DNA of 64,000 nucleotides, from contig JAJCYR010000056.1 in assembly GCA_029262775.1 (NCBI GenBank), forward strand, positions 340,676-404,675. Direction: 5' to 3'. This document shows positions 43,104 through 55,581 of the stretch, piece after piece. The notes below the pieces were generated by a model. The model saw only the letters and a list, made by a program, of their open reading frames with translations. It was not told the origin of the DNA and searched no databases. Numbering within the stretch: the stretch's first letter is position 1; the number at the start of each line of letters is the position of its first letter. The position numbers and the translations under genes are program-made. Source of the DNA: Bacteroidota bacterium. GTDB lineage: Bacteria > Bacteroidota > Rhodothermia > Rhodothermales > UBA10348.

Positions 43104-43754
43104 CTAGTCGGAGCGCTCACCTTCCACCCACTGCACGGCATGCTGCATGAGCTCGGCCGCGTTGCCGAGGTTCAACTTCACTTTTATCCGGGCCCGATAG
43201 GACTCCACTGTTTTGACCGACAGGTGCAGCCGTTCTGCAATATCACGTGTGCCGTATCCACGGCCCGTCAACTCAAACACTTCCAGCTCCCTGTCGGACA
43301 GAATGTCCAGTGGCGATTGGGCAAGCCCTTCGTGACCTGAGGCCATGCCGAGGAGCAGCCTTTCATTGATTTCCTCGGAGACGTAGATCCCACCATTCAC
43401 GATGCGTCTGACGGCTTTCACGATGACGTCACCGGCCTCCAGCTTCATCACATAGCCACGGGCACCCGCCCGGATGGCACGTTCAGCATAGAGCGATTCA
43501 TCGTGCCGGGAAACAACGAGCGTTTTCACGTCCGGCCGAATGGCATGCAGTTGTTTGACGAGCTCAAGTCCGCTCATTCCCGGAAGTGAGATGTCTATGG
43601 CTGCCACATCTGGATTGAGTTGTTCAATGAGACTCAAGCCCTCCTCAGCACTGGACGCCTGGCCGATGACTTTGATATCAGACTCTGCCTCCAGCGACAT
43701 CACCAATCCCTTTCTCATCAGCGGATGGTCGTCAATTACAACTATTTGAATCAT
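43104..43754 (-). CDS. NarL/LuxR-type response regulator
   Basis: IQIVVIDDHPLMRKGLVMSLEAE, DVAAIDISLPGMSGLEL; LSDRELEVFELTGRGYGTRDIAERLHLSVKTVESYRARIKVKL. Confidence 0.96.
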   Translation of the reverse strand: MIQIVVIDDHPLMRKGLVMSLEAESDIKVIGQASSAEEGLSLIEQLNPDVAAIDISLPGMSGLELVKQLHAIRPDVKTLVVSRHDESLYAERAIRAGARGYVMKLEAGDVIVKAVRRIVNGGIYVSEEINERLLLGMASGHEGLAQSPLDILSDRELEVFELTGRGYGTRDIAERLHLSVKTVESYRARIKVKLNLGNAAELMQHAVQWVEGERSD

Positions 43755-43768
43755 AATTCCGTTTCGGA

Positions 43769-45106
43769 TTATTCAGGTGAAAGGACACATCGCACACGGG
43801 TTCCCCCGTCGGGCCTGCGTTCAATGGTCAGGATTCCCCCGATCACACGGGCCCGGTAGCCCATGATGTCGACGCCCATTCCGCGGTCCTCTGACAAGGT
43901 GTCCGGAAAACCTATTCCATCGTCATCGATTGTGATTTCGAGGGCACGCCCCAGATCAGTGACAGACACGGTGACCAGGTTTGCCTGTCCGTGTTTCACG
44001 GCATTGCTGACCGCCTCCTGCGTAATCCTGTAGAGGTTCGAAGCGGCGCTGCTGTCATCCACACGAATGTCACCGTTTATTTCCAGTGTACAGGCAACGT
44101 CGAAAAGCCGTTCAGCATTCCTGCACAGGTTTCGGAGCCCAGCAGTCAGTCCATCCCCCTCCAATTCGACCTGAATCAGTCCGTGGGCCAGGTTTCTGGC
44201 CATCTGGTCCGATTCACGGATCAACTCGGTAATTTCCTGTGCCCGTTCTGCAAAGCGGGAGTCTTCCTTTTGCATTTCACGGGTCATGTTCTGGGATATA
44301 AGTCCAATTCCCGTCAGCATCTGCCCCAGGCCGTCGTGCAGATCCTGCCCAATTCGCCTGCGCTCCTGCTCAGATATGCGCAAAACCTCGTGCTCGAGGC
44401 GCCGACGCTCAGAGATGTCCCTCACGACCCCCGTAAAATAGGTTTTGCCATGCCGCCTGATCTCCGATACGCCGAGGTCCATGGGGAACAGCACTCCATT
44501 TTTTCTGCGGCCCGTGACCTCACGTCCTATACCGATGATCTTGGCCACACCGGTTTCCACGTAATTCCTGATGTAGTCGTCATGACGCTCACGGTGTGGC
44601 ATGGGCATCAACATGGACACATTGCGCCCCTTGACCTCGGCGCTGGTATAGCCAAAGACGACTTCAGCCGATCGGTTGAACGACTCAATGATTCCCCGGT
44701 CGTCAATCAAGATGATCCCATCGACTGTGGAATGAAATACAGCGGCAAACTCACGCTCCTTCATCTCACGGATTCCGACGCGGCGTTCAATAAACGGAAG
44801 ACGCTCTGCAAGGTCGTCCAGACCACTGAAAAGATCGTCAATGTGGACGGCATCATGAATCATGTGTGCGAGCGAGGCATGCGCAAGGCATACACGTTGC
44901 TTCTCATACTCATACCCGCCGCCGAGATTGTCCACCAACCCCTCGGTGCCCACTATCAGAATCAAATCCGCATCCAACGTTTTTTTACCGGGTGCGCAGG
45001 CCGGACCGCCGTTTACTTCCAGAACAGTGTGACCGCGCGACCTGACCAAACTGGAAATCCCTTCCGTGGACGTATTGGAACCAATGATCAGGACCTGCAT
45101 GCACAA
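43769..45106 (-). CDS. PAS-domain sensor histidine kinase, HisKA_3 (NarX/DegS) type
   Basis: PAS IILIDDRGIIESFNRSAEVVFGYTSAEVKGRNVSMLMP; EQERRRIGQDLHDGLGQMLTGIGL; ITQEAVSNAVKHGQA. Confidence 0.95.
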   Translation of the reverse strand: MCMQVLIIGSNTSTEGISSLVRSRGHTVLEVNGGPACAPGKKTLDADLILIVGTEGLVDNLGGGYEYEKQRVCLAHASLAHMIHDAVHIDDLFSGLDDLAERLPFIERRVGIREMKEREFAAVFHSTVDGIILIDDRGIIESFNRSAEVVFGYTSAEVKGRNVSMLMPMPHRERHDDYIRNYVETGVAKIIGIGREVTGRRKNGVLFPMDLGVSEIRRHGKTYFTGVVRDISERRRLEHEVLRISEQERRRIGQDLHDGLGQMLTGIGLISQNMTREMQKEDSRFAERAQEITELIRESDQMARNLAHGLIQVELEGDGLTAGLRNLCRNAERLFDVACTLEINGDIRVDDSSAASNLYRITQEAVSNAVKHGQANLVTVSVTDLGRALEITIDDDGIGFPDTLSEDRGMGVDIMGYRARVIGGILTIERRPDGGTRVRCVLSPE

Positions 45107-45181: not shown

Positions 45182-47578
45182 ATGAAAGACGAAAACTGCT
45201 ACGATACCGCTTGCTTCCCTTTTGAGTCACGATTGTCTTTACGGCCCTTGGTGAAATTCTGGCAGACCGAGGCGAGCTCTGACGACGTGCTACGCGCTGG
45301 CGTTGCCCGGCAGGTCCTGGCCGAAGCGGAGGCGCTACGGGACCTCATCCAGGAAAATCCGTCATCGGACGTGATCGTTGCCAATACGAACGTTATTCGC
45401 AGCCTGCTGACTTCCGTCTTTCCTCCTGCGCTCTGGTCAGACATGTTGGTCGCGGCGACGGCCCCGTTCGGCACGGACCCCATCGTTGCAACAGACAATT
45501 TCATCCAGCTCAACCTGTTGGCAGACAACGAGGCCAACTTCAGTCTGCTCGGTGGTCGGGTATCCCACCAGGATATGCATCGTGGAAAAGCCCTTGCGGC
45601 CTACTATGAAATCCTGAGAATCCATTATGGCGTGGATATCGACAAGCCTGTAACCTTCGTGACCGAGCGCCGGGATGACGGTGGCAGAACGTCCCGTTTT
45701 TACCGGCTTGAGCTTGACAGCCGCTTCATTGAAGTTGAACTGACTGGTGACAAACCAGTCCTGACATCGACGGACCTGCGCGATTTACTGGCCCATCCGA
45801 ATGATCTCGAGCGATGGGTGCGCGTACTCCCCCCCGCCCGGTTCGTTTTCGTTGGTCTGGCGTGTATTACTGCTACCGATGTGACACGCGAAGAAGCGCT
45901 CTCGCGTCTGAAGCAGGATCTGCTTTCAAAAAACGCCCTCCTGACGAAGGATAGTATCAATCACCTGCAGCGCCGTGTGCGCTCCTTCCTGCGGCTTCCC
46001 GATCTCCAGTTGGGAATCATTGCCCTGGACCGGTGTGAGACGGGTGAAGTAGGCGGGGCTCGCGCAATAGGGAAAAGCATCCTGCTCGACAACGGTATGC
46101 CGTCCTGCTCTCGAGAAAAGGAGTCGTTGTACTGGAATGTCATGCAGCGTGGTGAGAGCGTCGTCATCGAAGACCTGGAAGAATCCGGCAACAACACAGG
46201 ATTCGAATCCAGACTGCTCGAAGAAAACATCCGGAACATTTTTGTCTCGCCACTCCTGACGAACGACCACGCCGTGGGCATCCTGGAGATTGGTTCTCCG
46301 AACGTGGGGGATCTGAACAGCCTCAACTCGATCTGGCTGGTTGAACTGTCGCGGATTTTCGCTACCGCCCTTCAGCGCAGTTTGGATGAGCAGGAAGATC
46401 GGATCCAAGCGCTTATCAAGCGTCAGTACACGGCCATTCACCCTGTCGTGGAATGGAAATTCCGCAAGGCAGCCATCAAACACATAACGGCGTTTGAAGA
46501 GCATGGGGAAGTAGAGTGGCCGAAGATCAGGTTCAAAAATGTAGTCCCCATTTACGGTATGAGTGACATCCGTGGTTCATCGACTCAGCGCGCACATGCC
46601 ATCCAGGCAGATCTCGCCGAACAACTCGGATTGGCCCTGGCAACCGTTATTGCGGCCGCTACTGTTCGTCCCAGACCCTCACTGGATGAACTCGGGTACC
46701 GACTTTCCAAGCATATCGAATACGTACTGAAGGGGCTCGCCAGCGGAGACGAGTCATCACTGCTCGGCCTTTTGCAGCGTGAAGTCGAGCCCCTGCTCGA
46801 TGAGTTCAGCGCATACTCGGAGGACGTTGCAAAACAAGTAGACCAGTACAGACAAGCACTCGACCCCTCCCTCGGAATCGTCTATGAAGAGCGGCGGAAA
46901 TACGAGGACAGTGTGTCCGCGCTCAATGAGGCCATGGCCGCCTACCTGGAGGAGCGCGATGAGGAAGCGCAGGACATGGTGCCCCATTTCTTTGAGCGAT
47001 TCAAGACCGACGGTGTGGACTACAATATTTACGTAGGGAAAGACCTGGTCGAGTCCGGCAAATTTACGGAAATGGACCTGCGAAATATTCGCTTGTGGCA
47101 GCTCACGACAACCGCCGGAATCGCTACGGTCGCATCCAAACTGAAATCGTCGCTACCCGTCCCGTTGGATGTTGCCCATCTTATCCTGGTGCAGTCCGAA
47201 CCGCTCGATATCCGCTTCCGGGAAGACGAAAAGAAGTTTGATGTGGATGGCGCCTATAATATCCGCTATGAGATAGTCAAGAAGAGAATTGACAAGGCGC
47301 ATATTTCTGGTTCCAGCGAACGCCTGACGCAACCGGGGCATGTCGCCATAGTGTATTCGCTGGATGCGGAGCGGGATGAATACCTGCGCCACATCGACTA
47401 TCTGACAGCCTCAGGATATTTCGTTCAGGAGCCAGAGTTGTTGAACCTGGAGGATCTGCCTGGTGCCAATGGTCTGCGGGCCATTCGAGTACGGATCGCC
47501 GAAGACGCGCCTGGTAGACCGTTTCTGTCGCTTCCAGAAGCTAACCAGAGGGAGAGGGCAGTAGTCGTGGCGGAATGA
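45182..47578 (+). CDS. Uncharacterised 798-aa protein with a probable GAF domain
   Basis: Central region LQLGIIALDRCETGEVGG...SVVIEDLEESGNNTGFESRLLEENIRNIFVSPLLTNDHAVGILEIGSPNVGDLNSLNSIWLVELSRIFATAL is GAF-like; flanking regions unrecognised, including FKNVVPIYGMSDIRGSSTQRAHAIQADLAEQL. Confidence 0.75.
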   Translation: MKDENCYDTACFPFESRLSLRPLVKFWQTEASSDDVLRAGVARQVLAEAEALRDLIQENPSSDVIVANTNVIRSLLTSVFPPALWSDMLVAATAPFGTDPIVATDNFIQLNLLADNEANFSLLGGRVSHQDMHRGKALAAYYEILRIHYGVDIDKPVTFVTERRDDGGRTSRFYRLELDSRFIEVELTGDKPVLTSTDLRDLLAHPNDLERWVRVLPPARFVFVGLACITATDVTREEALSRLKQDLLSKNALLTKDSINHLQRRVRSFLRLPDLQLGIIALDRCETGEVGGARAIGKSILLDNGMPSCSREKESLYWNVMQRGESVVIEDLEESGNNTGFESRLLEENIRNIFVSPLLTNDHAVGILEIGSPNVGDLNSLNSIWLVELSRIFATALQRSLDEQEDRIQALIKRQYTAIHPVVEWKFRKAAIKHITAFEEHGEVEWPKIRFKNVVPIYGMSDIRGSSTQRAHAIQADLAEQLGLALATVIAAATVRPRPSLDELGYRLSKHIEYVLKGLASGDESSLLGLLQREVEPLLDEFSAYSEDVAKQVDQYRQALDPSLGIVYEERRKYEDSVSALNEAMAAYLEERDEEAQDMVPHFFERFKTDGVDYNIYVGKDLVESGKFTEMDLRNIRLWQLTTTAGIATVASKLKSSLPVPLDVAHLILVQSEPLDIRFREDEKKFDVDGAYNIRYEIVKKRIDKAHISGSSERLTQPGHVAIVYSLDAERDEYLRHIDYLTASGYFVQEPELLNLEDLPGANGLRAIRVRIAEDAPGRPFLSLPEANQRERAVVVAE

Positions 47579-48053
47579 GCGCCTGAAGCATGCCCTGCCC
47601 CCGCAGACGACCTCGTACCCAGTCACTCTCGTCGAAATCGACGACCGCAACTGCTGCCGTAACATAAGTGACCTGATTTCCTCCCGTGAGCAACGACAGC
47701 AGCCCGGCAAGCGTCGGCTGATGGCCAACCATCATCAGCACGCCAGCATGAGGGGTGTGCTCTGAGAGTACACGAAGCGCCCTCGTCGGCGCTGCCAGGT
47801 ACAATGCATCCAGGAAGTCTACCTTGTGGTCCTTCCACCCAGAGACAGAGAGCACATGCTTGAGCGTTTCGCGCGTCCTCTGGGCCGTGGAGCAGAGTAT
47901 CCATTCAGGAACATACGCCGCCTGTCCCTGCAACAGTATTCCAATGGAACGGGCAGCCTTTTCCCCCCGCTCGTTGAGGGGACGTTCATGATCGGTATCA
48001 AAGTCGGCGCTCCAGTCCGACTTTCCATGCCGCATGAGCAAAAGACGTCCCAT
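47541..48053 (-). CDS. SixA-like histidine phosphatase family protein
   Basis: MGRLLLMRHGKSDWSADFDTDHERPLNERGEKAARSIG...LCSTAQRTRETL...GVLMMVGHQPTLAGLLSLLTGG. Confidence 0.93.
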   Translation of the reverse strand: MGRLLLMRHGKSDWSADFDTDHERPLNERGEKAARSIGILLQGQAAYVPEWILCSTAQRTRETLKHVLSVSGWKDHKVDFLDALYLAAPTRALRVLSEHTPHAGVLMMVGHQPTLAGLLSLLTGGNQVTYVTAAVAVVDFDESDWVRGRLRGQGMLQALIPPRLLPSPSG

Positions 48054-48631
48054 TACACCATTCCGCTATTGAATACAACCCAGATATAGACACCAATAAA
48101 ACTCAGGATACCCAGAGTCAGGGCGACCATGAACATATTATAGGAAACGCGCAGTAGCGCAAATTTCCTGGACAATACCGATCCGAGACCGTAAATATCC
48201 CTGATCATGTTACGGTACATGAGGTTACGATCGACCATGACTTCCGTCATTCCTTCCTCGAACTCTTCTTCGCTCAGATGCGAATAGTGGCCGAAGAAGA
48301 GAATGTTTCCCTCCCGTTTCTGGATTTCTCCCAGCGATATCGGATCGCGGGGAACCCGGGGGCGCGCCGATATGACCGCGTAGATGATGGAGATGAGACA
48401 GCCAACCAACAGAAAACTCGTGGGTATGAGAAGCCAGGGGTTTGTGTCTATCTTGGGCGAAATCGAGGCGATGATGATGGAAATGATGATACCGTTGATG
48501 GATATCATGATATTTGATTTGGCGTCGGCCAGGGACGTCAGGTCCATATGAACCCGATATGTCGTCCGCAGCATGGTCTCAACACCGCGTTTCCGGGATC
48601 CCAACTTGATGTCCTCCTGTTCAGCTTCCAT
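48053..48631 (-). CDS. PycTM (DUF5706, Pycsar system effector family) membrane protein
   Basis: RTTYRVHMDLTSLADAKSNIMISINGIIISIIIASISP; NILFFGHYSHLSEEEFEEGMTEVMVDRNLMYRNMIRDIYGLGSVLSRKFALLRVSYNMFMVALTLGILSF. Start may be at 48574. Confidence 0.85.
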   Translation of the reverse strand: MEAEQEDIKLGSRKRGVETMLRTTYRVHMDLTSLADAKSNIMISINGIIISIIIASISPKIDTNPWLLIPTSFLLVGCLISIIYAVISARPRVPRDPISLGEIQKREGNILFFGHYSHLSEEEFEEGMTEVMVDRNLMYRNMIRDIYGLGSVLSRKFALLRVSYNMFMVALTLGILSFIGVYIWVVFNSGMV

Positions 48632-48649
48632 CGAATAACCCTGTTTTCC

Positions 48650-49480
48650 GTGATTTTGCGACTATTTCCTGTCCTGCTGTCATTTGTACTGTTTGGTGCC
48701 TGCCACGCACAGCCGGTACTGCATGCCCCGTACCTGTTCGACGCCCCGGATGATTCGTTTCCGCTCCCGGATATCCTGAAAGAGATTTCTGGACTTGGTA
48801 TGTTTCCGGACGGAACGCTTGCGGCTGTCCAGGACGAAAACGGACTTCTGTTCAGGATTGATGCCCGAACTGGCAATATACTGGAAGAAATTCGTTTTGG
48901 CTCGGACCGGGACTACGAAGGCGTAGAAATCGTCGCGCAGACAGTTTGGATTCTGGAATCGGACGGTGACCTGTTTTCCTTTCCGTTGAATGATCCTGGA
49001 AACCTGTCCAGAACACCCACGGGACTCTCCCGGAGCTTCAACACCGAGGGCCTCGGCGTGGACTTGGACGGCCATCTCCTGATTGCGGCCAAGAATTTTC
49101 CAGGACATGACTATGACGCGGACAATGAACGAACCATTTGGTCGTTCAACCCGGAAACCGGTTACATGTCCGAAAGGGCTCGTTTTGTGCTGGACGAGCG
49201 GGCCGTGGACCCGGAGGGCAACAAGAAGAAACGAATCGAGGACGTCAACCCCTCGGCTGTCGCCATCCATCCGTCCACGGGCCATCTGTACGTAACGTCT
49301 CCGACGGGCAACGAATTGTATGTCCTGACACGCGAGATGACGCTCGTGGAGCGCGTGGAATTTGACCTGGAAGGCATGGTGCAACCGGAGGGAATAGTAT
49401 TTTCCGCCGATGGCACGCTCTTCATATCGTCGGAGGGCCATGACCAGCCAGCCCGAATCTTCGTCTTCCACCAGCGGTAA
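48650..49480 (+). CDS. SdiA-regulated-like exported lipoprotein (beta-propeller)
   Basis: KEISGLGMFPDGTLAAVQDENGLLFRID, PSAVAIHPSTGHLYVTSPTGNEL, MVQPEGIVFSADGTLFISSEG. GTG start at 48650 gives MILRLFPVLLSFVLFGAC lipobox; ATG alternative at 48548. Confidence 0.75.
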   Translation: MILRLFPVLLSFVLFGACHAQPVLHAPYLFDAPDDSFPLPDILKEISGLGMFPDGTLAAVQDENGLLFRIDARTGNILEEIRFGSDRDYEGVEIVAQTVWILESDGDLFSFPLNDPGNLSRTPTGLSRSFNTEGLGVDLDGHLLIAAKNFPGHDYDADNERTIWSFNPETGYMSERARFVLDERAVDPEGNKKKRIEDVNPSAVAIHPSTGHLYVTSPTGNELYVLTREMTLVERVEFDLEGMVQPEGIVFSADGTLFISSEGHDQPARIFVFHQR

Positions 49481-49487
49481 CCCCCAC

Positions 49488-52400
49488 ATGATGCCCTCAC
49501 CTCGGACTGTCCTATACGTCCTCCTGCTGGCTTCGGCGACGGGAGCCGCTGCCCAGAACCACATCCTGCCCCCATCCGGCCAGTCACATGACATAGAGTC
49601 CCGACTTGTGATCATCGGGGATGCGGGTGGTGCCGATGCATCGGGTACCACTCCTGCCCTTGACCTGCTTCGCCGCGTGTTGGCCGATACATCCACGGCT
49701 GCGCATGTCATTTTCACGGGAGACAACATCTACTGTTGTGGATTGCCCGATTCAACTTCTCCGGATCGTAGTCAGGCAGAACGCCGACTCACCGCGCAAC
49801 TCCGGGCTGTAGAGAACGCCCGGGGAAAAGTTGTTTTTGTACCGGGAAACCACGATTGGGGCGAGGCCCCGAATTACGACCCGGCCATACTGAATCGACA
49901 GGAAAAATTCATAGAATCGTGGGGCGATGGCACGGTTCGAATGCTGCCAAACAACGGCCTGGCGGGCCCACACGAGATAAAGTTGTCGGACTACGTTCGA
50001 CTTGTAGCCATCGACACCCAGTGGTGGCTCATGGACAAGCCGAAGCCGACTGGAGAGTCAGACGACTACGAAGTAGCCGAAGACGGGGAGCTTCTCGCTG
50101 CGCTCTCGGACCTGTTGAACAAGAGGGACGACGAGCTCGTCATAGTCGTAGGACACCACCCCCTGATGTCAATGGGGCGCCATGGTGGCTACCACCCCCT
50201 CCGTGACCATATTTTCCCGCTTACGGAGGTGTGGGATCATGCATGGATTCCGCTGCCGATAATCGGGTCGCTCTACCCACTGCTCAGAAATGCGATTGGA
50301 GCTGAACAGGATGTATCGAACCGGAAATTCCAGGCGTTCGCACGCACCATGCTCTCCATGATGCAGACGGAAGAAGGCCGTTCCCTCTACGTAGCGGGGC
50401 ATGAACACGGTCTGCAACATATTCCAGTGGGGCCACTCGACCATATTCTGATCAGTGGTGGGGGGTCACGTCCCACGTGGGTGTCATCGGGGCCACCGTC
50501 CGCCTTCACATACGGAGGATATGGGCTTCTTGTCGTTGATGTGTTGCGATCTGGCAGTGCAATCCTTTATGCGGTGTCTCCGGCCGAAAACGCCAGCGGG
50601 TACCAGGTTCTCTACGAAACGGAACTGCTCCCCGAAAAGCGGATCATTCTTGATGAGGCTCTCCCTGCCAGTGCACCCTCCCTGCCAGACAGTGCCACCG
50701 CCGTCCTCGATGCCGATCTCGGAGCGGGTGCCATCCGCTCTTTTTTCTGGGGCGACCATCATCGTCGGGCATGGACACAGAAAGTTAAAGCGCCTGTCTT
50801 TGATATCGGAACGGTGCAGGGCGGCCTGCAGCCGGTGAAGAAAGGTGGTGGTTTGCAGACCACATCGGTGCGACTGGTCGACAGCCTGGGCCATGAGTAT
50901 GTGCTGCGTACCATGAACAAGGATGCGACGGCGACCATACCGGATCCCTTCAAGAAGACCATTGCCCGCCAGGTCTTTGCCGATCAGACCAGTGCCATTT
51001 TCCCCTATGGGGCCCTTCTGGTCCCGCCCCTGTCACAGGCTGCCGGCATATATCACCCCACTGCAAGGCTCTATTACGTTCCGCGTGACCCGCGATTTGG
51101 TCCGTTCGAGGACCTGGTGGCGGACCGCCTCATGCTATTCGAACGCCGGCCAGATGATGACATGACCGGTTTTCCTCAGTTCGGTGAGTCACCCGATGTG
51201 GAGTCGGCTGCCAAGTTTCATCGTGAACTCCGCGAAGACAATGATAACCGGGTCGATGCCAAGATGTTTGCCCGGGCTCGCCTGCTCGACATGTACATGA
51301 GCGATTGGGACCGGCACCAGGATCAATGGCGCTGGGCCTCGTTTGACAACCCAGACGGCAAGGGGCGGTTGTTTCAGCCCATTCCCCGCGACCGCGATTG
51401 GGCATTCAACTACATGAATGGCGTACTCCCAAGTATCATCAAGTCACCGTGGGTGCTTCCCAAGTTCCAGGATTTCCGGCCAGAATTCGGAATGCTGCGT
51501 GGCCTCAATGCCAACGGAATGACGCAGGACAGGCGGCTTACGGCCGAATTGACCCGAGAGGACTGGATCGATGAAGCCGAAACGCTGCAGCGTACAATCA
51601 CACCGGATGTGATTGCTGCCGCACTCGACGGAATCCCCAAGGAACTGCAGGATGACTACGGTGAGTGGTTCGGGCAGACGCTGCGCGCACGTCTGGCGGA
51701 ATTGCCGCGCATAGCCTCCGACTACTACGATCTCCTGAGCAATCTGGTGGATGTGGTAGGCACGGACAAACATGAGCTGTTTTCCGTCCGCTCGAGCGGA
51801 GACGAAGTTGAAGTTGTCATGTTCAAGACGCTGAAGGACGGGGAAGTCCGGAAGGAGTTGTACCGGCGCACGTTTCATGCCGATGAAACGGAGGAAGTCC
51901 GGCTCTATGGTCTGGCGGGCATGGACACGTTCCAGATAACGGGAAATGCTGAAGTGCCCATCCGGATTTACGCCGTCGGTGGAACGGACCTGGACACCTA
52001 TTCGGATAACACCCGGGGAACAGCCACGAACAAACATTTTATCATTCGTGATACGATGTCCGGTTCCACAGTTACCGCTGGGGTATCCACACGCGACAAA
52101 CGGGACCTGGATCCCGTCTCAACTGCCTATGATCCGGGCGAGTACTGGTTCGAAGTGCTTCTCCCCCGCGTGTTCGTGGAGTCGAATCAGGATGTCGGGT
52201 TTGCGTTCGGAGGCGGCTTCACCCATACGTCCTACCGTTTCAGGCGTGAGCCGTACAGCACCTATCATACGGCTGCCGCCAACTTTGCCCCTGAAACCGG
52301 CGGCGTTCACATCAACTACCTCGGTCATTTCACCAATCGTTTACGTGACTGGGGAGTACTTCTGCGCGCCGATGTCCAGTCACCCAACTCCACGGTCAAT

Positions 52401-53189
52401 TTCTTCGGCTTCGGCAATGAGTCCGATCGCTTCGTGTCAGGCTCCAATTTTTACCGAACACTCATGACCGCTACGGAAGTGGATTTCATGCTGGAAAAGC
52501 CGGTCTCCGAACATCTGACAGCGCGGTTTGGCCATAGCTTCGAGCTGTTCGACGCCCAGCGGGACGAGAAGCGGTTTACCGGAACGGCCACTGCCGAAGT
52601 GGATCCCAACGATTTTGATCGCCAGCTTTTTGGCGGCCTGATAGGAGAAGTGGAAGCTGATTTCCGGGACAATCCCGTCGCCCCAAGCTACGGATTTTTC
52701 TGGGCAGCCCGCACACATGCCCGCGTCGGATACAACGACGCTTCCAAACCGTCTGCGGACCTGTCCACGCGGATTTCGTGGTTCAATCCACTCCTTGGCA
52801 GTCCCGACCACATTCTGGGTTTGCAACTCGGTGCAGGTCACACGATTGGCGACGTTCCTTTCTTCCTTGCGCAGTCCATTGGAGGGTCGGGCTCACTCAG
52901 GGGATGGCGTATGAACCGTTTTTCCGGCCGGACGTCCTTTTTTCAGAACGTCGAAATCCGGTCACAATTTTTTCGCTACGCAACGCCCGTTGCGGTCGGA
53001 ACGGGTGGTGTGTTTGCCTTTTTTGACAATGGGCGCGTGTGGATCGACGATGATAATTCGGACCGGTGGCACCAGAGTGTGGGAATGGGGTTGTGGACAA
53101 ATGTGTTCGACCTGACCGTCATCAACATCAATCTCTCCCTCTCCGAAGAGGAAACCGCGCTATCCGGCGGACTCGGTTTCGCCTTTTGA
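49488..53189 (+). CDS. Calcineurin-like metallophosphoesterase fused to a C-terminal outer-membrane barrel (BamA/D15-like)
   Basis: Signal peptide; LVIIGDAGG, VIFTGDNIYCCG, FVPGNHDWGE, VVGHHPLMS, VAGHEHGLQ; C-terminal SIGGSGSLRGWRMNRFSGRTSFFQNVEIR...LSGGLGFAF (terminal Phe). Confidence 0.88.
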   Translation: MMPSPRTVLYVLLLASATGAAAQNHILPPSGQSHDIESRLVIIGDAGGADASGTTPALDLLRRVLADTSTAAHVIFTGDNIYCCGLPDSTSPDRSQAERRLTAQLRAVENARGKVVFVPGNHDWGEAPNYDPAILNRQEKFIESWGDGTVRMLPNNGLAGPHEIKLSDYVRLVAIDTQWWLMDKPKPTGESDDYEVAEDGELLAALSDLLNKRDDELVIVVGHHPLMSMGRHGGYHPLRDHIFPLTEVWDHAWIPLPIIGSLYPLLRNAIGAEQDVSNRKFQAFARTMLSMMQTEEGRSLYVAGHEHGLQHIPVGPLDHILISGGGSRPTWVSSGPPSAFTYGGYGLLVVDVLRSGSAILYAVSPAENASGYQVLYETELLPEKRIILDEALPASAPSLPDSATAVLDADLGAGAIRSFFWGDHHRRAWTQKVKAPVFDIGTVQGGLQPVKKGGGLQTTSVRLVDSLGHEYVLRTMNKDATATIPDPFKKTIARQVFADQTSAIFPYGALLVPPLSQAAGIYHPTARLYYVPRDPRFGPFEDLVADRLMLFERRPDDDMTGFPQFGESPDVESAAKFHRELREDNDNRVDAKMFARARLLDMYMSDWDRHQDQWRWASFDNPDGKGRLFQPIPRDRDWAFNYMNGVLPSIIKSPWVLPKFQDFRPEFGMLRGLNANGMTQDRRLTAELTREDWIDEAETLQRTITPDVIAAALDGIPKELQDDYGEWFGQTLRARLAELPRIASDYYDLLSNLVDVVGTDKHELFSVRSSGDEVEVVMFKTLKDGEVRKELYRRTFHADETEEVRLYGLAGMDTFQITGNAEVPIRIYAVGGTDLDTYSDNTRGTATNKHFIIRDTMSGSTVTAGVSTRDKRDLDPVSTAYDPGEYWFEVLLPRVFVESNQDVGFAFGGGFTHTSYRFRREPYSTYHTAAANFAPETGGVHINYLGHFTNRLRDWGVLLRADVQSPNSTVNFFGFGNESDRFVSGSNFYRTLMTATEVDFMLEKPVSEHLTARFGHSFELFDAQRDEKRFTGTATAEVDPNDFDRQLFGGLIGEVEADFRDNPVAPSYGFFWAARTHARVGYNDASKPSADLSTRISWFNPLLGSPDHILGLQLGAGHTIGDVPFFLAQSIGGSGSLRGWRMNRFSGRTSFFQNVEIRSQFFRYATPVAVGTGGVFAFFDNGRVWIDDDNSDRWHQSVGMGLWTNVFDLTVININLSLSEEETALSGGLGFAF

Positions 53190-55217
53190 CCATCCCACAA
53201 ACTGGTCGTAACGCGTATTCTGAGCACGCACCGCTGGCACCGATTCGTCTCTCTCAACAAAGCCATTATACCGCTCCTCATTGAGGGTTCGCGCCTTGAC
53301 GTTGTCCGACAACTGCAGTTCAAGCCACTCCTTCAAAGAGGCCGCCAACCCGCTATCCAGCACGGGCGCCGCCACTTCTATGCGCCGATTCATGTTGCGC
53401 GTCATCCAGTCAGCGCTGGCCATGTAGACGGCTTCACGCCCGGGTTGTTCGAATATATAAACGCGTGCGTGTTCCAGAAAGCGGTCCAAAATAGAGATGG
53501 CGCTAATGTTGTCGGAAAGCCCCGGCACGCCCGCCCGCAAACAGCAGATACCCCGCACGATCAGATCAATCTGTACACCGTCTTGTGATGCCATGTACAG
53601 TGTCTGGATCAGGTCGGGGTCTTCCAAGCTGTTCATTTTCAGGATCATGCGCGCATGTCTACCCTCCCGGGCTACCGATCGCAAGGTGTCCACCTCCCGC
53701 ATGAATCCCTGTCGCAGCTCGTTCGGCGCAATCAGCAGGTGTGTTGCCAGAGGAAAAGCCGCGGAGTGTTCCAGATGGTTGAAGACACGGCCGACATCTG
53801 ATGTAACGCCGGAATGCGCCGTAAACAGCGTGATATCGTCGTATAACAGTGCAGTCTTCTCGTTGAAATTACCTGTCGATATGAGCGCCACGTCGTGTCC
53901 GCTACCGACGGAGAACCGGATATGGACCAATTTTGCATGCACCTTGATCCCGGGCCGACTGGTCTCCACAATGGCGCCCGCTTCGCGCAGCCGATCCATC
54001 ACAGACAGATTACTGGCTTCATCAAAACGCGCCTTCAGCTCTACAAATACGAAGACGCGTTTACCATTGCGGGCTGCCGAGCAGAGTGCGCTGATAATCT
54101 CCGAGTCAGACGAGACCCTGTACACGGTCATTCGGATTTCTTCGACATCATCTCGATGGGCGGCCTCCTGCAGGAGGTTGATGACGGGTGCATAGGACTG
54201 GTGAGGCACGTGCAGCAGGCGGTCTGCCTCGCGAATGCGGGCCACCATATGGTGTCCGCGTGCCAGGACCGGGTGCGGAAGGGGCGGCATCGGTTTGTCG
54301 CGGAGCTCATCCGGACCGCGATCCAGGATGCCGAAGAAGTCCGAGAAATTGTGGTAGCGACCGCCGAGCTGCGCATCGATCACATCGACCTGCAGTAGTT
54401 CCAGCACCCGGTTGAGTACCACCTGAGGCATATGCCCATCGTAGAGCAACCGCGTGGGACGTCCGGTTTCCCGCTTCTGGAGGCTTTTGCGGATCAGCTT
54501 GGCGAGATCGGCGGTGAACTCGTCTTCCAGATGCAGATCGGCGTCGCGGGATATTTTGATAGCCCACATGTTGGCCATTTCCATCCCTTTTTCTGTTCGG
54601 GACAGCAGGACGCGAACGGCGTCGTCCACAAAGCAAAACGCACCGTCCTCAAAGTGAATGAACCGCCTTGTGGTCGGAAAGTGAAGTGTGCACATGCAGA
54701 TCTCGCCACGCTGGGCTTCCAGGTCTTCCCAGACGGAAGCTGTTCTCAGGCAAACAAGGACCATTTCTCCGTCTTTCAGGAACGGTGCAGAACGACCACT
54801 GGCCTCCCTCCAGAGCCCCATGTGTGGTGAGAGTGCCTCGTCTATCCATTCGAGGCGCGATGGTGCACCAATTTCCCGTGGCGACAGCAGCGGCATGCCG
54901 GCCCGCGAGAGGCCCGGCAGAATGACCTCCCGGAATACCCGGCCGAAGCGTGCCTGGAGCAGGTCGACCTGATGTTGGATCTCCCTGACAAGAGCATCGG
55001 GCGCATACCCCAGTTTCTCCTGCTTACGCGCCGAGACCTCGCCCAGATTCCGGAGACCCGCCACACGAACCCGGTAGAACTCGTCCAGGTTGGATGAGAA
55101 TATGGCAAGGAATTTCAGTCGCTCCAGAAGCGGGTTGTGATCATCTTCTGCTTCCTGCAACACGCGCTCGTTGAAATCCAGCCAGGAGAGTTCACGATTC
55201 CGGTACGTATCCATCAT
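53160..55217 (-). CDS. ppk1: Polyphosphate kinase 1
   Basis: TYRNRELSWLDFNERVLQEAEDDHNPLLERLKFLAIFSSNLDEFYRVRVAGL; IRMTVYRVSSDSEIISALCSAARNGKRVFVFVELKARFDE. Confidence 0.96.
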   Translation of the reverse strand: MMDTYRNRELSWLDFNERVLQEAEDDHNPLLERLKFLAIFSSNLDEFYRVRVAGLRNLGEVSARKQEKLGYAPDALVREIQHQVDLLQARFGRVFREVILPGLSRAGMPLLSPREIGAPSRLEWIDEALSPHMGLWREASGRSAPFLKDGEMVLVCLRTASVWEDLEAQRGEICMCTLHFPTTRRFIHFEDGAFCFVDDAVRVLLSRTEKGMEMANMWAIKISRDADLHLEDEFTADLAKLIRKSLQKRETGRPTRLLYDGHMPQVVLNRVLELLQVDVIDAQLGGRYHNFSDFFGILDRGPDELRDKPMPPLPHPVLARGHHMVARIREADRLLHVPHQSYAPVINLLQEAAHRDDVEEIRMTVYRVSSDSEIISALCSAARNGKRVFVFVELKARFDEASNLSVMDRLREAGAIVETSRPGIKVHAKLVHIRFSVGSGHDVALISTGNFNEKTALLYDDITLFTAHSGVTSDVGRVFNHLEHSAAFPLATHLLIAPNELRQGFMREVDTLRSVAREGRHARMILKMNSLEDPDLIQTLYMASQDGVQIDLIVRGICCLRAGVPGLSDNISAISILDRFLEHARVYIFEQPGREAVYMASADWMTRNMNRRIEVAAPVLDSGLAASLKEWLELQLSDNVKARTLNEERYNGFVERDESVPAVRAQNTRYDQFVGWSKGETESAG

Positions 55218-55581
55218 TTCTGTCGCATTTGTAGGTGGTTTCCGCGCGGTCACACGGGCCACCTACCGGTGGATTCACTTTGCGAACCGTTACCTGGACA
55301 CTCTCTACACGGGGCGATTCCCGGAGCATTCGACGGGCCATCAGATACGCCAACCGCTCGATCAGAAAGAACCTGTTGTTCAGAATGATCTCCTTCGCAA
55401 GTGCATATACGTGCTCGTAATCGACCGTTTTTGTCAGGTCGTCTGACGCTGCCGCATCGCTGAAGTCGAGTTGCATCTCAACATCGACTTCGTAGCGGCC
55501 ACCGATGCGATGCTCTTCCTGCATAACCCCGTGATGGGCGTAGAACACCGCATTAACAAGGCGAACAATTCCTTTGGACAT
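55192..55581 (-). CDS. folB: Dihydroneopterin aldolase
   Basis: GIVRLVNAVFYAHHGVMQEEHRIGGRYEVDVEM...KTVDYEHVYALAKEIILNNRFFLIERLAYLMARRML. Confidence 0.9.
   Translation of the reverse strand: MSKGIVRLVNAVFYAHHGVMQEEHRIGGRYEVDVEMQLDFSDAAASDDLTKTVDYEHVYALAKEIILNNRFFLIERLAYLMARRMLRESPRVESVQVTVRKVNPPVGGPCDRAETTYKCDRNDGYVPES

Follow-up and report, generated by a model that had tools for sequence, protein, structure and literature searches.

PycTM proteins take their name from the Pycsar anti-phage system. In that system PycTM effectors disrupt membranes (PMC11224242), and host signalling by cyclic mononucleotides outside Pycsar has been raised as a possibility for host Apyc1-like enzymes (PMC9117128). 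Here, we describe a PycTM gene and its neighbours in a window of 64,000 nucleotides from a member of the Rhodothermales (Bacteroidota; GenBank assembly GCA_029262775.1, contig JAJCYR010000056.1, positions 340,676 to 404,675). The initial annotation, made from the letters alone, proposed an orphan or repurposed Pycsar effector coupled to a SixA-like phosphatase and facing a GAF-domain protein, and held a non-defence signalling role to be equally possible. It is this second idea that fits best with what we found, a conserved chromosomal module across the Bacteroidota. Our best explanation of the locus, which as a whole has in our view a probability of about 0.6, is a resident, non-defence module of envelope signalling with PycTM as its inner-membrane receptor or effector. 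That the locus is a non-defence module is in itself very likely. We found no published description of this module in a search of open-licence papers in PubMed Central.

The clade that holds the window PycTM is chromosomal, and its genes travel with a protein joining a calcineurin-like phosphoesterase to an Omp85 barrel (hereafter phosphoesterase-Omp85), the GAF protein, SixA and PPK1. With family profiles built for this analysis, PycTM was found in 155 of 393 genomes, 139 of them with a strong match. Phosphoesterase-Omp85 is its most constant genomic partner, matched strongly in 126 of these 139 genomes versus 23 of the 254 others (Fisher p=2e-62, odds ratio 97). Strong matches to the GAF protein occur only together with PycTM (87 of 87 genomes, p=7e-51) and all 87 genomes also carry phosphoesterase-Omp85; because related genomes share ancestry, these co-occurrence p-values overstate the independent evidence and it is the effect size that counts. 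We also counted neighbours up to 10 kb from PycTM in 77 loci selected by PycTM, one per genome; L168-L247, picked by their GAF protein, are not part of this set. Phosphoesterase-Omp85 is among these neighbours in 55 loci, the GAF protein in 23, SixA in 21 and the PPK1 copy that we call PPK1b in 18, and SixA is the immediate 3' neighbour of PycTM on the same strand in 16 (open reading frames, ORFs, of other loci come from mechanical calling). The order GAF protein, SixA, PycTM, beta-propeller protein, phosphoesterase-Omp85 recurs within the taxonomic order, where the GAF proteins of relatives outside the genus are mostly 36-50% identical, and pieces of the module recur across the phylum. In L067, L069, L072, L073, L074 and L081 the GAF gene is elsewhere, yet PycTM adjoins phosphoesterase-Omp85. 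Conservation of the neighbourhood, named in the initial annotation as a check, reaches far beyond close strains and comes without a defence-island context, but it does not extend to every relative. About half of the family lacks PycTM and the GAF protein, and in one congener (G002) both are missing together with any strong match to phosphoesterase-Omp85, an absence suggesting that the module seems to be lost or gained as a unit.

The genes concerned are, in window coordinates:

45182-47578, plus strand: GAF protein, 798 amino acids (aa), convergent with the SixA-PycTM pair
47541-48053, minus strand: SixA-like histidine phosphatase, 170 aa (His_Phos_1, 8e-11), its start overlapping the PycTM stop
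48053-48631, minus strand: PycTM-family membrane protein, 192 aa (PF18967), a stand-alone form without HD or cyclase domain
48584-49480, plus strand: SdiA-regulated/phytase-like beta-propeller protein (PF06977, 4e-9; PF13449, 7e-8)
49410-53189, plus strand: phosphoesterase-Omp85, 1259 aa, with calcineurin-like phosphoesterase (PF00149, 9e-10), central conserved domain and Omp85 barrel (PF01103, 1e-9)
53160-55262, minus strand: polyphosphate kinase 1, second copy in the genome (PPK1b; PF13090, 2e-66)

The ORFs of the GAF protein, the SixA-like protein and PycTM were all confirmed at the positions given initially. The two gene overlaps described initially are present: the PycTM stop TAA (48055-48053) and the SixA ATG (48053-48051) have one base in common, and the SixA and GAF genes, which converge, share 38 bp. 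Since congener identity is high (96% for PycTM and 89% for the GAF protein) and all three proteins are conserved across families, we take them to be real. The propeller protein has 298 aa if read from 48584, and its ORF opens at the ATG at 48548; in L055 the gene at the same position matches PF06977 at 1e-12. The other PPK1 copy of the genome is at G000:C5. Divergent from the GAF gene, a PAS histidine kinase and a LuxR-type response regulator occupy 43104-45106 (minus strand); one or both also stand beside the GAF gene in L053, L054, L059, L062 and L065.

A hidden Markov model search confirmed the first identification of the 192-aa protein as PycTM (PF18967, E=7.1e-28, 97.6 bits versus a curated cut-off of 27.2). 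The PADLOC profile for PycTM matches it at 9e-21, and it is the sole PF18967 match in its genome. The AF2 model consists mostly of long helices (predicted local distance difference test, pLDDT, 80), and nothing in the PDB matched this fold at E<=0.001. In a tree of 114 PycTM domains, in which long branches leave some rows uncertainly placed, the protein falls inside a Rhodothermales clade (support of 96 in the Shimodaira-Hasegawa-like approximate likelihood-ratio test, SH-aLRT) that adjoins the f18 clade (95; f18, f28 and f31 are labels for families only). The large group that holds it is split from most Pycsar-like rows, those on long branches (SH-aLRT 98); two Pycsar-like rows are nevertheless inside this group. 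Among 72,556 plasmid records the window PycTM retrieved a single one, an 859-kb replicon of Persicobacter (Bacteroidota), and a Pycsar-type PycTM retrieved three genes whose annotation is that of a Pycsar effector; for two of the three, a cyclase is annotated close by.

Might the protein still be an orphan Pycsar-type anti-phage effector, its cyclase elsewhere or lost and SixA and the GAF protein acting as regulators? The family match in both Pfam and PADLOC, the patchy presence that skips a congener and the membrane disruption known for Pycsar PycTM (PMC11224242) would fit. We nonetheless regard this as highly improbable. A PF00211 search of the genome turned up no class III cyclase, PycTM is co-inherited across the phylum with phosphoesterase-Omp85, the tree separates it from most Pycsar-like rows, and a genuine Pycsar pair exists separately in the relative G033, where a PycTM of 161 aa accompanies a cyclase matching the solved cyclase 7r65, which we take to be a pyrimidine cyclase, at 2e-46. 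The neighbours of the module are conserved housekeeping genes, and a PADLOC scan of 20 neighbouring genes returned no credible defence match. Near the locus, a DRT-like match proved to be DNA polymerase I, a weak DrmC match PPK1, and a weak partial match falls on a ParA-type ATPase. The locus has an effector of the PycTM/PycTIR kind, but there is no PycC beside it or, by the class III search, in the whole assembly, and no defence-island or mobile context, with close relatives essentially absent from plasmids. With PycTM in a separate clade as well, we rejected membership in Pycsar. Hence, the anti-phage framing of the initial annotation does not hold up against a neighbourhood kept across families and classes, in a housekeeping context, and a PycTM that groups with chromosomal relatives.

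That annotation also saw no cyclase nearby. This extends genome-wide and to three congeners, within the reach of a search for PF00211 only, in which other nucleotide synthases were not surveyed; the window assembly is about 95% complete, and incompleteness of genomes in general can hide genes. In relatives, class III cyclases do accompany PycTM. In f18 a cyclase gene of about 650 aa precedes PycTM by 36-114 bp in seven genomes and adjoins it in another two, and five genomes carry cyclase-PycTM fusions in a single chain (L139:8921-10069(+), L145:8241-9374(+), L326, L327 and L328). All five fusion genomes are without a strong phosphoesterase-Omp85 match. The f28 cyclase stands tail-to-tail with an HD-PycTM fusion in three genomes (L311, L313, L314), where it occupies the slot next to PycTM held by the GAF protein in other genomes. 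Its N-terminal half is hydrophobic (e.g. L311:8273-9385(+), L314:10211-11380(-)). In a fourth f28 genome (L312) the same cyclase was found and the ORF caller did not resolve PycTM. HD-PycTM fusions occur in many Bacteroidia, with an HD part weakly similar to PDEase_I (E=0.0015). We consider it probable that PycTM works on a cyclic nucleotide in the window genome too, and by analogy with these relatives the module has the look of cyclic-nucleotide signalling.

ATP-using class III cyclases usually carry a lysine at the base-selecting position. All PycTM-linked cyclases of f18 and f28 that we examined (those of L136-L138, L142-L144, L147, L311-L314 and L324-L328) have Gln there, in the motif QYY-GD or QYV-GD, and their product may not be cAMP. 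A PDB search with an f18 linked cyclase gave 3mr7, not PycC, as the nearest match. At L069:9691-12853, PycTM, a gene of the metallo-beta-lactamase fold and a response-regulator cyclase follow in a row; the best PDB matches of the middle gene are RNase Z, and we do not call it Apyc1.

The distribution of these cyclases tends to complement that of the GAF protein. A class III cyclase is present in 51 of the 52 PycTM genomes without the GAF protein versus 46 of the 87 with it. With f18 left out the contrast is 22 of 23 versus 46 of 87 (p=7e-5), and the genomes carrying both GAF protein and PycTM are about at the background rate, 115 of the 254 genomes without a strong PycTM match. The GAF protein is itself composite, with a GAF domain at about 267-398 and a conserved C-terminal alpha/beta domain at about 445-775 of its 798 aa. 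GAF_2 matches the window protein just under its cut-off (5.9e-6) and 37 of 52 relatives, down to 7e-9. The AF2 model is confident (pLDDT 87). In its C-terminal domain a strand (450-464) is followed by a helix (466-495), a helical insert, a helix (570-599), a strand (603-609), the turn D610-G611, a strand (611-618), a helix (630-655), further strands, a helix (692-705) and a strand (720-725), an order that in the model resembles the class III cyclase domain. D462 and D610, invariant in an alignment of the 52 relatives, take positions in this model that suggest the two metal sites expected of such a domain. A Foldseek search with the model placed a phytochrome-cyclase construct first (6fht, 9.5e-7), had other sensor-output proteins among its top matches and returned a soluble guanylate cyclase at 9e-5, the TM-scores of sensor-cyclase matches being low over whole chains; GAF-only crystal structures are matched as well, most GAF-only or phytochrome-core matches lying near 5e-4 to 1e-3.

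The GAF protein is our best, if tentative, candidate for the source of the PycTM ligand, perhaps as a divergent cyclase. The fuller version of this idea, somewhat doubtful in our eyes, makes it the founding member of a new family of GAF-regulated nucleotide cyclases, marked by a helical insert and by changes in the catalytic residues, that feeds a phylum-wide, non-immune PycTM pathway and is replaced by class III cyclases where it is absent. A good deal weighs against it. Profile comparison by hhalign found no match for the GAF protein among 28 cyclases, and with 68 cyclases the scores stayed inside the permuted null; the comparisons included versions lacking the insert and used permuted as well as reversed nulls. 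Guanylate_cyc is absent from the Pfam families listed for the 52 relatives. An identity as cyclase is not supported at the sequence level, no profile match rising above the null. Where a class III cyclase has its catalytic Asn/Arg pair four residues apart, N693 is conserved in most rows, and at the Arg position stands a glutamate, E697. As for complementarity, of the PycTM genomes with the GAF protein 41 are without a cyclase and 46 have one, a pair-wise phylogenetic test yielded just two supported independent pairs, and the pattern leans on a few clades. Finally, co-occurrence alone does not exclude a defence role for the module. The initial suggestion that the signal could come from the GAF protein remains among the ideas that fit best, without support from the cyclase profile tests. 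The ligand might instead be made by a cyclase of another class encoded elsewhere (e.g. class IV or the c-di-AMP type), the GAF protein being a mere regulator. The restriction of our search to PF00211 leaves room for this, but in 393 genomes the GAF protein never occurs without PycTM and it holds the slot that a cyclase takes in f28, and we find the idea improbable. L056:6069-8480 in G004 is a second, more distant paralogue of the GAF protein, with 35% identity and no PycTM nearby. For the GAF-protein genes at L178-L182 and L188-L210, in Pontibacter, Adhaeribacter, Hymenobacter and others, the flanks examined contain PycTM or phosphoesterase-Omp85 in very few cases.

The other partners speak of phosphate and of the envelope. 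The best PDB matches of the SixA-like protein are SixA (2rfl at 2e-12); it belongs to the superfamily, and its match to TIGR00249 (2.5e-15, 56.6 bits) is below the equivalog cut-off of 74.5. In phosphoesterase-Omp85 the central region (window 50697-51929, residues about 430-840) has the invariant motifs D632-x-D634-R-H636 and D661-x-D663, loosely like those of secreted/HipA-type kinases; Pfam returned nothing for this region, which leaves a kinase-like identity unsupported. The window genome has a second phosphoesterase-Omp85-like gene (G000:C23:29889-32366, E=6e-236, profile positions 7-850). One might speculate, from partners such as phosphoesterase-Omp85, SixA, PPK1 and the phytase-like propeller, that the module serves phosphate/polyphosphate or envelope homeostasis with PycTM as a structural or scaffold protein that has no nucleotide ligand, and that the GAF sensor acts by protein contact. 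The missing class III cyclase and the lack of sequence evidence for the GAF protein as an enzyme agree with this. But the same PycTM clade is fused to or paired with cyclases and HD phosphohydrolases in different families, which points to a nucleotide, and polar residues in the C-terminal domain of the GAF protein are so well conserved as to suggest that the domain is catalytic or binds a ligand. On balance we hold a scaffold role to be unlikely.

A signalling module of the kind we favour could work as follows. On sensing a ligand inside the cell, the GAF protein would use its C-terminal domain to make a cyclic nucleotide. PycTM, seated in the inner membrane, would bind this cyclic mononucleotide and change the state of the membrane or the activity of a partner, as the precedent of Pycsar PycTM suggests (PMC11224242). 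The observed association with phosphoesterase-Omp85 and PPK1 would place the output in envelope or phosphate/polyphosphate homeostasis, in a direction that we infer. SixA would be a putative accessory phosphatase of this phosphate chemistry and not an off-switch.

These results matter for the reading of genomes. Defence finders will include PycTM proteins in their counts, and most of those in the 393 genomes are of the resident type (139 of 155 with a strong match, 126 of the 139 with phosphoesterase-Omp85). An old chromosomal cluster across the phylum suggests an everyday, non-immune job for a PycTM-type cyclic-nucleotide switch. Should this be so, defence may have arisen from, or next to, an ordinary physiological role of PycTM signalling. 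The module offers a direct route to the functions of cyclic mononucleotides in Bacteroidota beyond immunity, and the GAF protein represents an uncharacterised family, potentially one of new nucleotide cyclases.

How does the module compare with known systems? With Pycsar, made of PycC and PycTM, it shares the PF18967 membrane protein, and its relatives have a class III cyclase either next to PycTM or in one chain with it, a pairing much like that of Pycsar. It differs in that the window PycTM is in a separate, chromosomal, phylum-wide clade, in a genome where no cyclase was found; its constant partners are phosphoesterase-Omp85, the GAF protein, SixA and PPK1; and the cyclases linked to its relatives have Gln in place of the base-selecting Lys, the f18 one that we tested being nearest in the PDB to 3mr7 and not to PycC. 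Like SixA phosphohistidine phosphatases, the 170-aa protein is an RHG-type histidine phosphatase, but it scores under the TIGR00249 cut-off and is linked to PycTM instead of a phosphorelay. GAF-linked class III cyclases such as 6fht have no detectable sequence similarity to the GAF protein, which has about 60-100 additional residues in a helical insert and Glu for the catalytic Arg. They are its best fold matches, and both seem to be built as a GAF sensor, a helix and an alpha/beta output, with Asp at what would be the two metal positions. In Flavobacteriaceae and other Bacteroidia, HD-PycTM fusions belong to the same PycTM clade as the window protein, with the GAF protein tail-to-tail and phosphoesterase-Omp85 as a neighbour; their N-terminal HD phosphohydrolase domain is absent from the window protein.

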